Positions 48,206 to 52,382 of a stretch of 64,000 nt of DNA are shown one piece after another. The stretch comes from Archangium gephyra (GTDB taxonomy: Bacteria > Myxococcota > Myxococcia > Myxococcales > Myxococcaceae). The notes below the pieces were generated by a model, which was not told the origin of the DNA, ran no database searches, and was given only the letters and a program-made list of their open reading frames with translations. A program made the translations under genes and the position numbers. Each line of letters opens with the position of its first letter. Position 1 is the stretch's first letter. The stretch lies in the NCBI RefSeq assembly GCF_001027285.1, contig NZ_CP011509.1:8580501-8644500 (forward strand). Reading direction: 5' to 3'.

Positions 48206-49452
48206 TCACCCAACCAAAACGGCGTCTCCACTCGGGCAGCGACTTTTCTCACTCCCCTCCCCCCCTCCGTGGCCGAGCAACCGCACCCCCTCCAGGGCGC
48301 GCTGCAGGTCGGCCCAGAGGTCCTCGGGGCTCTCCAGTCCCACGCTGACCCGGAGCATGCCCGCGGAGATGCCACTGGCCTCGCGGAGCTTCTCGTCCAC
48401 CACACGGTGCGTGAGGCTCGCCGGGTGCTGGATGAGCGAGTCCACCGAGCCGAGGCTCACCGCCGGCGTGAGCAGCTCCACCCGCTCCATCACCTGGGCC
48501 GCCGCCTTCGCGCCTCCCACCACCTCGAAGGACAGCAGGCACCCGGGCCCGCGCATCTGCCGCCCGAGGAGGCCCTCGGCGTCCCCCCGGGGAGTCCCGG
48601 GTACCACGTGCGCGACACGGCCGGGTGCGAGGCCAGCCGCTTCGCGAGGAACATGGCGCCGCGCTGCGACTCGCGGACACGCACGGGCAGCGTCGCGAGG
48701 CCCCGGTGCAGCATGTAGCCCGCCTCGGGGTGGAGCACGCCGCCGGTGGCGATGCGCACCTGGCGCAGCCTCGCCGCCCAGCCCGCGTTCGTGGCCACCA
48801 CTCCGCCCATGACGTCGCCGTGCCCCCCGAGGAACTTCGTCGCGCTGTGCAGCACCAGCGAGGCCCCGAGCGCCAGCGGGTTCTGCAGCACGGGCGTGGC
48901 GAAGGTGGAGTCCACCAGCACCGGCACCTCGCCCGCCTGCGCCACCACCCGGGCGATGTCGATGAGCGCCAGCGTGGGGTTGGCCGGCGTCTCCACCACC
49001 ACGAGCGCCGTGTCCGGACGCAGCGCCCTGCTCACGTGGTGCGGATGCGTCCAGGTGACCTCCACGCCCAGCAGGCCGCTGTCCAGCAGATGGTCCGTGC
49101 CGCCGTAGACGGGACGGCACGCCACCACGTGCTTGCCGCCCTGGCGCGCCGCGAGCAGCACCGCCGTCAGCGCGGCCATGCCCGAAGCAAAGGCCACCGC
49201 CTCCTCGGCTCCCTCCAACGCGGCCAGCGCCTTCTCGAAGCGCACCACGGTGGGGTTGTGCAGCCGGGCATAGATGGGGTTGTCGCGCAGGGGACCTCCC
49301 TGGGCGAGCGCGTCGAAGCACTCGCCAATGCCTCCCATGCTGCCCACGGGATAGGTGGTGGAGAGATCGATCGGCGGCGCATGGACACCGAGTCCGGCGA
49401 GATCCTCCCGGCCAGAGTGGACCGCACGCGTTTCGAAACCGGGCTTCTTCAT
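48206..49452 (-). pseudogene. PLP-dependent cystathionine gamma-synthase/lyase family, one frame break
   Basis: From ATG 49452 the sequence gives the family pattern: GFETRAVHSG, the PLP-binding ASGMAALTAVLLAA region, VYGGTDHLLD, VETPANPTL and Lys206 of LHSATKFLGGHGD. At 48583-48588 (a run of six C) the frame slips; the continuation in another frame reads LLGRQMRGPGCLLSFEVVGG, VSLGSVDSLIQHPASL and a normal C-terminus to 48206. One added base repairs it. The intact enzyme would act in trans-sulfuration: gamma-lyase or gamma-synthase, not decided. It is a real gene damaged by mutation or by a sequencing error. Confidence 0.85.
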
Positions 49453-49580
49453 CCGAATTTCCTCCCGTCCAAAGGGCACGGGAAGAAATTACGCATCCCT
49501 CCGGCGAAGAGACATCGAATAGGCTGCGGAACCATTCGGCACAACGGGCAGGAGACCGAATTGGCTTCGGCGGAAGCCCG

Positions 49581-50783
49581 TCACTGCCGCAAGGGCAGCA
49601 ACAGGGTGAACCGGGTTCCGCGCCCCGGCTCCGACTCGACCGAGATGGAGCCATTGTGGTTCTCCACCACCTTGCGGCAGATGGCCAGACCGATGCCCTG
49701 CCCCGGGCTGTTCGGATCCAGCTTCTTCAGCGCCTCGAACACGTAGTCGCTGTAGCGGTTGTCGAACCCCATCCCGTTGTCCGCGAAGATGATCCGCGCG
49801 AAGTCGGTGTAGTGGTACCTGCCCGTGTTCGCCCGGTAGGTGTTGTGCTGGATCAGGCGGCACTCGATGTCGATGCGCGGGCTCACCTCGGGCCTGCGGA
49901 ACTTCACCGAGTTGTCGATCAACTGGAAGAACAACATCATCAGCTGCCGGCGCCGGCCCTGGAGCATGGGGAGCGGCTCGCAGTGCAGCTCCATTCCCAT
50001 CCCCGCCCTCTCGGTCACGAGCTGCCGGGCGCCGCCCACCACCTCTCCCAGCTCCACGTCCTCGAGCGGCTCCTGGGTGTCGTCCAGCGACACGAACTCC
50101 TGGAGCGCCATCACCAGCTGCTCCATCCTCGCGCTCTGGACCTTGATCCGCTCCAACGAGCGCTGGCCCGTCGCCGACAGCACCTCGCGGTCCTGCTGGG
50201 TGAAGAGACTCGAGAACATGGAGAGCTTGCGGATGGGCTCTCGCAGATCATGCGACAGGATGGTGCTGATGCGGGTGAGCTCCTGGTTCTTCTGCTCCAG
50301 CCGGCTGAGCTTCTGGTCGAGCGCCCGGGCATGCAGCTCCAGCTCCTGCCGGGCCCGGCTCAGCTCCTCGTTGTTGCGCAGCGCCTCTTCCGCCATCCGC
50401 TTCGCCGCCAGCAGCTCGTCCTCGTACTTGCCGCGGTTGCGCACCGGGATGAGCGCGCACTGATTGAGGCTTCCCCCCTCGCGCTCCTTGCGGACGGCGT
50501 TGAGGAGCACGGGGATGCTTTCCCCGCTCCTGGAGCGCAGCGAGAGGAAGATCTCCTCCGCCTTGCCCTGCATCCGGATCATCGGGAAGAGATGCGTCTG
50601 GTAGAACATGCGGCTGGCCAGCGTCAGGAGCGACTCCACGCGGCTGCCCACCAGCTCTCCCGAGGCGTACCCCAGCAGGTCCGCCAGCGTGGCGTTGACG
50701 GCCACGAGGGCACCGTCATCGGTGAACGAGAAGAAGCCACAGGGCGCGGTGTTCAACGAGTCGTCCACGGGGTGCGTCGCCAA
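49581..50783 (-). CDS. PAS-domain histidine kinase, partner of the RsbQ-type hydrolase
   Basis: I choose TTG 50783 (AGGGAAG upstream), giving 400 residues. Residues 10-120 are a PAS domain (APCGFFSFTDDGALVAVN, LADLLGYASGELVG). A coiled coil (LARQELELHARALDQKLSRLEQK-type, about 140-175) leads to the phospho-acceptor motif SHDLREPIRKL and a C-terminal ATPase with N box (LIDNSVKF), FADNGMGFDNRYSDYVFE and GIGLAICRKVVENHNG. No membrane segment is present, so it is a cytoplasmic sensor. It follows the hydrolase by 20 bases; RsbQ makes or modifies a ligand for a PAS domain in Bacillus, which suggests the same here with a kinase output. No adjacent response regulator exists. Confidence 0.85.
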   Translation of the reverse strand: MATHPVDDSLNTAPCGFFSFTDDGALVAVNATLADLLGYASGELVGSRVESLLTLASRMFYQTHLFPMIRMQGKAEEIFLSLRSRSGESIPVLLNAVRKEREGGSLNQCALIPVRNRGKYEDELLAAKRMAEEALRNNEELSRARQELELHARALDQKLSRLEQKNQELTRISTILSHDLREPIRKLSMFSSLFTQQDREVLSATGQRSLERIKVQSARMEQLVMALQEFVSLDDTQEPLEDVELGEVVGGARQLVTERAGMGMELHCEPLPMLQGRRRQLMMLFFQLIDNSVKFRRPEVSPRIDIECRLIQHNTYRANTGRYHYTDFARIIFADNGMGFDNRYSDYVFEALKKLDPNSPGQGIGLAICRKVVENHNGSISVESEPGRGTRFTLLLPLRQ

Positions 50784-50803
50784 GACTGCTTCCCTACGAG
50801 GCC

Positions 50804-51619
50804 TCAGGACAGGGAGGCCTGCTCCAGGTAGTCCTTGATGAGGGAGATAGTCTCCTCGGGAGCGCTCATGTGCGGACAGTGTCCCGTGGCACGAGTGATC
50901 CGCAGCGTGCTGCGCGCCAGGTTCCGGTGGAGATACTCGCCCACCTGCCTGGGGGCAATCAGATCCTCGGAGCACTGGATGATGAGGGAGGGCACCGTCA
51001 GCTTGGGCAGATCCTTGCGGTTGTCGGAGAAGAACGTCACCTCCGCGAACCGCCGGGCGATGGTCGGATCCGTGGAGCAGAAGCTCTCCGTCAGCTCCTG
51101 GTTCAGCTCCGGCCGGTCTGGCCTGTTCATCACCATGGGCGCCAGGAAGTTCGCCCAGCCGATGTAGTTCTTGTCCATCGTCTGCAGCAGCTCCTCGATG
51201 TCCTGCCGCTCGAAGCCGCCCACGTAGCCGGGAGCCTCGTTGAGGTAACGGGGCGAGGGACTCACGAAGACGAGCCGATGGAAGCGCTCGGGCTCGCGGA
51301 TGGCGGCCAGCAGTCCGATCATGCTGCTCACCGAGTGCCCGACGAAGATGACGTCCTTCAGGTCGAGCGCCTGGCAGATGTCGAGGATGTCCTCCGCGTA
51401 GCCGTTCAGACTGGAGTAACGCTCGCGGTTGTACGCGCGAAGGTCCGACCTGCCCGAGCCGACGTAGTCGAACAGGACGACCCGGTAGTCCGCCTCGAAG
51501 GCCGGGGCCACGAAGCGCCACATGTGCTGATCGCAGCCGAAGCCATGCGCGAAGAGCAGGGTCTGGGTTCCCCGTCCCCTCACCTGGACGTTGTTGCGCG
51601 AGAGGATGTCCTGGGCCAT
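50804..51619 (-). CDS. rsbQ: RsbQ-type alpha/beta hydrolase
   Basis: The protein has 271 residues, close to B. subtilis RsbQ, and strongly resembles it by eye ([58 protein letters not shown]). The triad Ser96 (VGHSVSS), Asp219 (SEDLI) and His247 (TGHCPH) has the positions known from RsbQ. In Bacillus RsbQ activates the PAS-containing phosphatase RsbP during energy stress, probably by producing a hydrophobic ligand. Here the next gene is a PAS histidine kinase, so the output differs. The hydrolase probably comes first and is transcribed with the kinase. Confidence 0.88.
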
Positions 51620-51827
51620 GGGCTTCGAAACCCGGAGAGACGTGTCTTCACGGTGGAGCATGACTTCATGCGTTACCGGTTGAGCGCGCTCCCCACCAGG
51701 GCCGATGGCGGCTTCGCCGGACCCGCCCCGGCTTTCTGTTCGGTGGACTGGAATTCCGTCCGGAACGGGTTCGAAGTTCGACACTTCAGCCGGGCGAATC
51801 CACCCCGAACGGAATACGGTTCCATAC

Positions 51828-52382
51828 ATGGAAGGAACCTCGAAACTGGACCCCATCGACTTCGCCATCCTGGAGGCGCTGCAGAAGAACGCGCGGCTGT
51901 CGAACAAGGAGCTGGCCGCCGAGGTGGGGCTCGCGCAGTCGAGCTGTCTGGCGCGGGTGACGCGGCTGCGCGAGGCGGGCGTGCTCAAGTCCTTCCACGC
52001 CGAGGTGGACCCCCGCGCGGTGGGCATCGGGCTGCAGGCGATGATCGCCGTGCGGTTGCGGCAGCACTCGCGGGAGATGGTGGAGGAGTTCCGCCACCAC
52101 GCGCTCTCGCTGCCGCAGGTGCTGGCCGTCTACCACGTGGCCGGAGCCAACGACTTCCTCGTGCACGTGGCGGTGCGGGACGCGGACCACCTGAGGGACC
52201 TGGGCATGGACGCCTTCACCACCCGGCCCGAGGTGGCGCACCTGGAGACGTCCCTCATCTTCGAGTACGTCCGCAGCCCCGGGCTTCCGCTCTACGGGCC
52301 CAAGGGAGCCGAGCAGCGCGCGGCCCCCAGTGCCGGGCCCGTCAAGCGCTCCCGCAAACGGTCCAGAGCAGCCGCTCGATGA
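51828..52382 (+). CDS. Lrp/AsnC-family transcriptional regulator
   Basis: The protein has 184 residues from ATG 51828. A helix-turn-helix ([40 protein letters not shown]) is followed by an AsnC ligand-binding (RAM) domain ([35 protein letters not shown]). A basic, disordered C-terminal tail of about 25 residues ([12 protein letters not shown]) is uncommon in the family. The gene is divergent from the RsbQ gene. The intergenic sequence has short inverted repeats (TTCCG-TC-CGGAA at 51754-51765) that could be a site for this regulator. Its 3' end overlaps holA, on the other strand, by 41 bases. Confidence 0.88.

Follow-up and report, generated by a model that had tools for sequence, protein, structure and literature searches.

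An RsbQ-type hydrolase and a PAS histidine kinase as a probable bipartite sensing module in Archangium gephyra

In Bacillus subtilis, the alpha/beta hydrolase RsbQ contacts the PAS domain of RsbP, with the F-alpha helix of the PAS domain implicated in this contact, and the catalytic triad of the hydrolase is required (main text of Nadezhdin, Brody and Price, 2011; PMC3183031). According to the same text, loss of the phenylalanine F55 of RsbP breaks the binding of RsbP to RsbQ. The study assembled 45 RsbQ/RsbP-PAS pairs with phosphatase, histidine kinase or diguanylate cyclase outputs, reported the histidine kinase outputs from Gram-negative bacteria, and gave nine positions plus a conserved proline as marks of PAS domains paired with RsbQ. 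Two questions were left open in 2011, namely whether the hydrolase supplies the PAS domain with a product or itself acts as the receptor, and which signal RsbQ-type hydrolases read, which was still unknown (PMC3183031, main text). For plant KAI2, a possible origin by horizontal transfer of a bacterial RsbQ has been proposed; its natural ligand is described as undiscovered (PMC10504578). In the KAI2 structure paper, Ser119 is argued to disturb the catalytic histidine (PMC3548789).

We analyzed a gene pair in a stretch of 64,000 nucleotides (the window) from the Archangium gephyra genome, which is a single contig of 12.49 Mb (Table 1). The kinase gene lies downstream of the hydrolase gene, separated from the hydrolase stop by 20 bases. 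Its translation probably starts at a TTG codon (50781-50783), as judged from the likely ribosome-binding site AGGGAA 6 bases upstream. Judged by the hydrolase, the closest named organism among the best 80 of 449 relatives is Archangium violaceum Cb vi76 (90% identity). An earlier note on this DNA had called the combination a poorly described variant, which does not hold, since the histidine kinase output is one of the three in the main text of PMC3183031. The string “Myxo” is absent from that main text (Figure 2 excluded), and a literature search gave no result on RsbQ in Myxococcus. As the kinase branch is in print and no myxobacterial case was found, we file the pair with the modules known since 2011. 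With these modules it shares the gene order, the N-terminal RsbP-class PAS domain, the helical linker, the kinase output, the triad and the class residues, but the host is a myxobacterium, and members of the window clade carry Ser120 in their hydrolases and Phe where the PAS class has Leu13. Compared with RsbQ-RsbP of B. subtilis, hydrolase family and PAS class are the same, whereas the output is a kinase instead of a PPM phosphatase that acts on the partner switch of a sigma factor.

Table 1. Features of the hydrolase-kinase pair, in window positions.
Feature	Position	Strand	Evidence
RsbQ-type alpha/beta hydrolase, 271 aa	50804-51619	-	Match to 1wom, E 1.5e-114; triad Ser96, Asp219, His247
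Soluble PAS histidine kinase, 400 aa, TTG start	49581-50783	-	HisKA, HATPase_c, PAS_9; structure model
RsbP-class PAS domain, aa 1-113	50445-50783	-	Class residues; profile without myxobacteria, E 1.6e-64
Continuous helix, aa 117-197, from linker into dimerisation helix, H-box His178	50193-50435	-	Alignment, predicted structure
ATP-binding domain of the kinase (N, G1 and G2 boxes), aa 241-400	49584-50063	-	HATPase_c 2.4e-18; alignment; model
AGGGAA, likely kinase ribosome-binding site	50790-50795	-	Sequence
Segment missing from the orthologous site of genus relative G001	49600-51804		Alignment; both genes except the last 19 kinase bases

Among solved structures, the best match of the window hydrolase is B. 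subtilis RsbQ (1wom, 385 bits), followed at a distance by Olei00960 (294 bits) and the best plant KAI2 (221.5 bits). The three residues that the earlier note had named as a conserved triad line up with the RsbQ triad in the alignment with 1wom, and the Ser-Asp-His triad is unchanged in all 95 aligned RsbQ-type rows; seven duplicate rows were aligned and kept out of the residue tabulation. Of the phylogeny proposed in the same note, the part with RsbQ and KAI2 agrees with this placement: in a rooted tree, a branch (bootstrap/SH-aLRT 89/94) sets apart 22 RsbQ-type rows, the window protein among them. D14, which belongs with KAI2 to the same hydrolase superfamily, was compared by search scores; the window protein is closest to RsbQ, not to KAI2 or D14. 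The ligand pocket was judged by six single residues, taken as putative pocket positions of RsbQ: F27, V97, Y125 and F136 are the same in the window hydrolase and B. subtilis RsbQ, whereas S120 and R124 stand against G120 and C124. Ser120 is found in all six hydrolases of the window clade versus 6 of the 79 other named RsbQ-type rows; it occurs in two of three KAI2 rows as well, and Arg124 in three of three. Since just three of 20 bacterial KAI2-type rows have Ser at this position (Gly 11, Lys 6), Ser120 is a weak hint only. Position 222 separates the groups, being Ala in 95/95 RsbQ-type rows but Val in 20/20 bacterial KAI2-type rows and 3/3 KAI2. The window protein has Ala222 and Thr195 like RsbQ-type rows, as opposed to Val and Ile in the three KAI2 rows; B. 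subtilis RsbQ differs from it in having Ala195. The window genome encodes two RsbQ-type hydrolases (at 8631307 and 9161403), and a third family member is KAI2-like.

The earlier note's assignment of the second gene to a soluble PAS histidine kinase was borne out by its coordinates and by Pfam, in which HisKA, HATPase_c and PAS_9 score just over the cut-off or better; the output is made up of HisKA and HATPase_c and is no PPM phosphatase. The predicted structure (mean pLDDT 85.6, pTM 0.58, from a 20-row alignment) has the PAS fold at the very N-terminus, joined to the kinase core by a single helix, and His178 is unchanged across the 20 aligned kinases. Compared with solved folds, the model reaches its lowest E-value (1e-21) with the blue-light PAS kinase 4gcz, with a TM-score of only 0.32-0.35 because the domains are arranged differently; the kinase domain matches the bacteriophytochrome kinase 8f71 (33% identity, TM 0.78 on the target).

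All ten RsbP-PAS positions that were checked fit the class without a gap (numbering from the APCG motif): C15, F18, L53, R58 and F60 of the window PAS correspond to C10, L13, L48, Q53 and F55 of RsbP, and Y61, H64, P67, E77 and P91 to C56, Y59, P62, E72 and P86. The Phe at the L13 position is hydrophobic though not Leu, and F60 is the counterpart of the Phe that RsbP needs for binding RsbQ. The end of the window PAS is without a DIT motif, the region of the last PAS strand reading ALIPVRNRGKYED; this absence is claimed for the window alone, because some DIT-like endings, such as those of L021 and L084, escape the narrow search pattern. In a held-out test, a profile built from 73 non-myxobacterial partners recognized the window partner with high significance (Table 1). 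When a 34-row PAS profile was run against the whole window genome (E ≤ 0.001), four matches were obtained, with 193.6, 112.6, 24.3 and 22.6 bits. The upper two each adjoin an RsbQ-type hydrolase and no other PAS domain exceeds 25 bits; as the top two PAS domains thus adjoin both hydrolases, the association of RsbP-PAS and RsbQ-type hydrolase is one-to-one in this genome.

Based on gene pairing, co-inheritance, class residues and intact catalytic motifs, we consider it very likely that the pair forms a bipartite RsbQ-PAS sensing module whose output is a histidine kinase, which would make the myxobacterial kinase branch a simple two-gene system with phosphorylation as its read-out. That RsbQ contacts the PAS domain directly and that the triad is required was shown by others, in B. 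subtilis only. By homology, the hydrolase would bind a small molecule, a ligand that we infer, and probably hydrolyze it slowly. It would then touch the F-alpha helix of the N-terminal PAS domain (helix 55-72 in the model), a contact presumed for the window organism. The ensuing change in the PAS domain would be carried by the helix 117-197 to the dimerisation domain and would there alter autophosphorylation at His178, in a direction that is conjectural. The phosphate would most likely pass to a single-domain response regulator whose gene lies apart from the pair and whose identity is likewise conjectural. We know of no ligand or target for any member of the kinase branch.

Bacteroidota modules give hints of such a regulator: at least 24 of 34 modules have a lone receiver gene no more than about 700 bases away, on the same strand in 16 and on the opposite strand in 8, and receiver frames of 120-180 aa are present for 23 of the 24. 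These counts are lower bounds, since the receiver profile was made from four seed sequences; some of the 34 loci (L044, L084) end right behind the pair. The same profile detected no receiver gene close to the pair of the syntenic locus L033. Because of this result and the 24 of 34 Bacteroidota modules with a lone receiver, an unlinked single-domain regulator is our best guess. In the window genome, where 150 of 230 candidate receivers were scored, at least 54 reach E ≤ 1e-15 with the Bacteroidota profile, with no clear partner among them.

Which of the two proteins senses the signal is the point on which a second version of the module differs from the favored one. In that version, which is model 1 of the 2011 paper as given in its main text, the hydrolase makes a product or cofactor and hands it to the PAS domain, which is the true sensor. 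The invariance of the triad noted above agrees with it, as do the null phenotypes of B. subtilis triad mutants, but no ligand had been detected in RsbP-PAS (PMC3183031, main text). Further, Ser120 of the window clade occupies the site of KAI2 Ser119, which is proposed to disturb the catalytic histidine (PMC3548789). We rate the supply of a product by the hydrolase as a serious possibility at somewhat less than even chance. As the window clade has the Ser that was proposed in KAI2 to hamper catalysis, we lean slightly towards the hydrolase as a receptor.

The distribution of the pair was surveyed in the loci with named organisms, i.e., the best 80 of 449 relatives found by a genome-wide hydrolase scan. 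The same PAS domain lies directly downstream of the hydrolase in 77 of these 80, as counted with a profile built from most of the same partners (the held-out test above is separate), and the pair is present in nine named phyla. Two of the three other loci (L054, L107) stop at a contig edge and L079, from Pseudanabaena, is genuinely without the PAS domain. Near the 80 hydrolases, 63 histidine kinases and 12 diguanylate cyclases were found and five loci have no output or are cut; the 63 include the kinase without PAS of L079, and phosphatases lie outside the profile set. Within the genus, five of six genomes carry a window-type pair and the sixth (G001) has a 60% copy only. In a second genus, among the matches listed, four genomes have it, with hydrolases at 75-79% identity; both PAS and kinase were verified for G110, G111 and G112, and the PAS for G015. 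The neighbor survey and the conservation in relatives thus both speak for the coupling which the earlier note had proposed. Across the phylum, 43 of 195 genomes have an RsbQ-family match at 1e-45 or better, KAI2-type hydrolases included.

Some loci of this survey deviate in their architecture. In L079 (195-3554), the Pseudanabaena RsbQ without RsbP-PAS is followed after 201 bases by a receiver-kinase gene, possibly a replacement of the partner. In Sporosarcina gallistercoris (L103, 2480-7807), a second RsbQ-PAS-diguanylate cyclase module lies about 1.6 kb from the first. The RsbQ of Paenibacillus cellulositrophicus (L105, 6833-7306) precedes a 157-aa protein of PAS and helix without an output domain, which is possibly truncated or a stand-alone sensor. 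Apparent hydrolase-kinase fusions in L123, L165, L182, L183, L191 and L193 were rejected, as the fused frames cross the hydrolase gene in the wrong frame.

In the window, the pair is flanked by a gene for an enzyme of Cys/Met metabolism (PF01053, E 1.1e-74) and by a divergent Lrp/AsnC-type regulator. Four genus relatives (G001, G002, G003, G005) have the same two flanking genes directly adjacent, the pair being absent there. The G001 alignment covers window positions 48255-49599 and resumes at 51805, and the other three stop at 49531 and restart at 51846; these three have the pair at other sites of their genomes. The simplest reading of these alignments is an insertion of about 2.2 kb in an ancestor shared by the window strain and G004, but separate losses in other members of the genus may have occurred instead. 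The alignments indicate that hydrolase and kinase gene move as a unit. They also bear on the idea that the pair, together with the divergent regulator, controls the adjacent PF01053 gene: it lies between both flanking genes and on the strand of the enzyme gene, but the four relatives keep these genes together without it and three of them carry it elsewhere, so that we regard such a service to the flanks as improbable. Since this PAS immediately follows the hydrolase in 77 of the 80 named loci, chance pairing is excluded, and a metabolic hydrolase coincidentally beside an unrelated kinase, for which the 90 general hydrolase family matches of the window genome could be cited, is extremely unlikely given nine phyla, fitting class residues, movement as a unit and the restriction of PAS domains above 100 bits to the neighborhood of RsbQ-type hydrolases.

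The main frame of the PF01053 gene itself (48206-49479, minus strand) stops at 48490 and the expected C-terminal part is in another frame, which seems to be a frameshift or a sequencing error.

Regarding the origin of the module, the kinase-domain tree places the window clade inside a group of 35 rows that otherwise consists of 29 Bacteroidota rows (SH-aLRT 99), and the PAS tree groups the clade with Bacteroidota modules (93). A transfer of the module from Bacteroidota is suggested only, because in the hydrolase tree the window clade stands next to Bacteroidota and not within.

Besides the RsbQ-type proteins, the scan yielded bacterial hydrolases nearer to plant KAI2. The KAI2-type copy of the window genome (L114, genome position 9401506-9402309) scores 235 bits against plant KAI2 and 226 against RsbQ, and the L178 hydrolase 232 and 202 bits, respectively. 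In an unrooted tree, seven myxobacterial KAI2-type rows are split off together with KAI2 from every RsbQ-type row (SH-aLRT 100, to be read with caution for long branches). In the rooted tree, bacterial KAI2-type rows and plant KAI2 are not one clade, several lines arising from one polytomous node, and the RsbQ-type side alone forms a coherent group; plant KAI2 stands beside the cyanobacterial hydrolase L220 (97/94) on long branches, and kinship is not claimed. Consequently, “nearer KAI2” rests on search scores, the unrooted split and residue 222, not on the rooted tree.

Two partners of such hydrolases, the hybrid kinase of L178 and the class III cyclase of L165 (PF00211, E 4.7e-66), share a PAS domain, here K-PAS (37% identity over 131 aa, E 1.5e-20). 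Searched with a four-row K-PAS profile, 195 Myxococcota genomes gave 11 matches of E ≤ 5e-35, and one further match came from 40 genomes reached through 41 of the 80 named loci, L065 left out. With an 11-row profile and E ≤ 1e-15, six matches were obtained in 386 genomes of the cyanobacterial phylum (weakest 62 bits, the single match from the 40 genomes included), one in 365 genomes of the Bacteroidota phylum and none in 370 of the Chloroflexota phylum, a search with no known positive as control. Each of the 18 matches from the three phyla (E ≤ 1e-15) follows a KAI2-type hydrolase encoded on the same strand, directly in 17 cases and with a kinase gene in between in one (G037); four of the 18 had been chosen for lying by a hydrolase and 14 were not used in the first query. 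A twelfth, partial Myxococcota match (G112, E 4.5e-10, 42.5 bits) was left out of the 18, and no hydrolase match was found inside its 3.1-kb locus. The loci with hydrolase and K-PAS listed are L165, L178, L180, L192, L208, L209, L216-L220 and L222. A Pfam scan of ten partners identified hybrid kinases in L178, L208, L209, L216, L218, L219 and L222, class III cyclases in L165 and L217 and a diguanylate cyclase in L220, the other eight, myxobacterial partners lying outside the scan.

K-PAS has a D-[VI]-T motif at its end, is without the RsbP F-alpha signature and aligns with the RsbP-PAS profile in a 44-column starting stretch only (E 5e-6, probability 86%); for these reasons we place it outside the class of 2011. 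It may be a distant cousin of RsbP-PAS, as far as this profile comparison goes. Its assignment to the PAS fold relies on weak Pfam matches, above the cut-off in L178, L209 and L219 and below it in L208, L216 and L218; no Pfam PAS match was obtained at the place of K-PAS in L165, L217, L220 and L222. Plant KAI2 is not known to have a PAS partner. A literature search found no description of a module of KAI2-type hydrolase and K-PAS, which is weak evidence because most subscription journals lie outside that search.

On balance, we favor a second hydrolase-PAS module, in which a KAI2-type hydrolase (Val222) is paired with K-PAS on soluble or membrane hybrid histidine kinases or on cyclases in Myxococcota, Cyanobacteria and Bacteroidota. 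If so, the bacterial relatives nearest to plant KAI2 would be receptors for signaling enzymes and tractable for the search for KAI2-type ligands. Bacteria would then offer KAI2-like receptors already coupled to kinases and cyclases, and candidate ligands could therefore be screened by cyclic-nucleotide or phosphorylation assays. Among the KAI2-type hydrolases without K-PAS, at least six are located directly upstream of a membrane histidine kinase (L116, L120, L169, L170, L171, L174), these kinases having no match to K-PAS or RsbP-PAS, and others stand alone, the copy of the window genome (L114) included.
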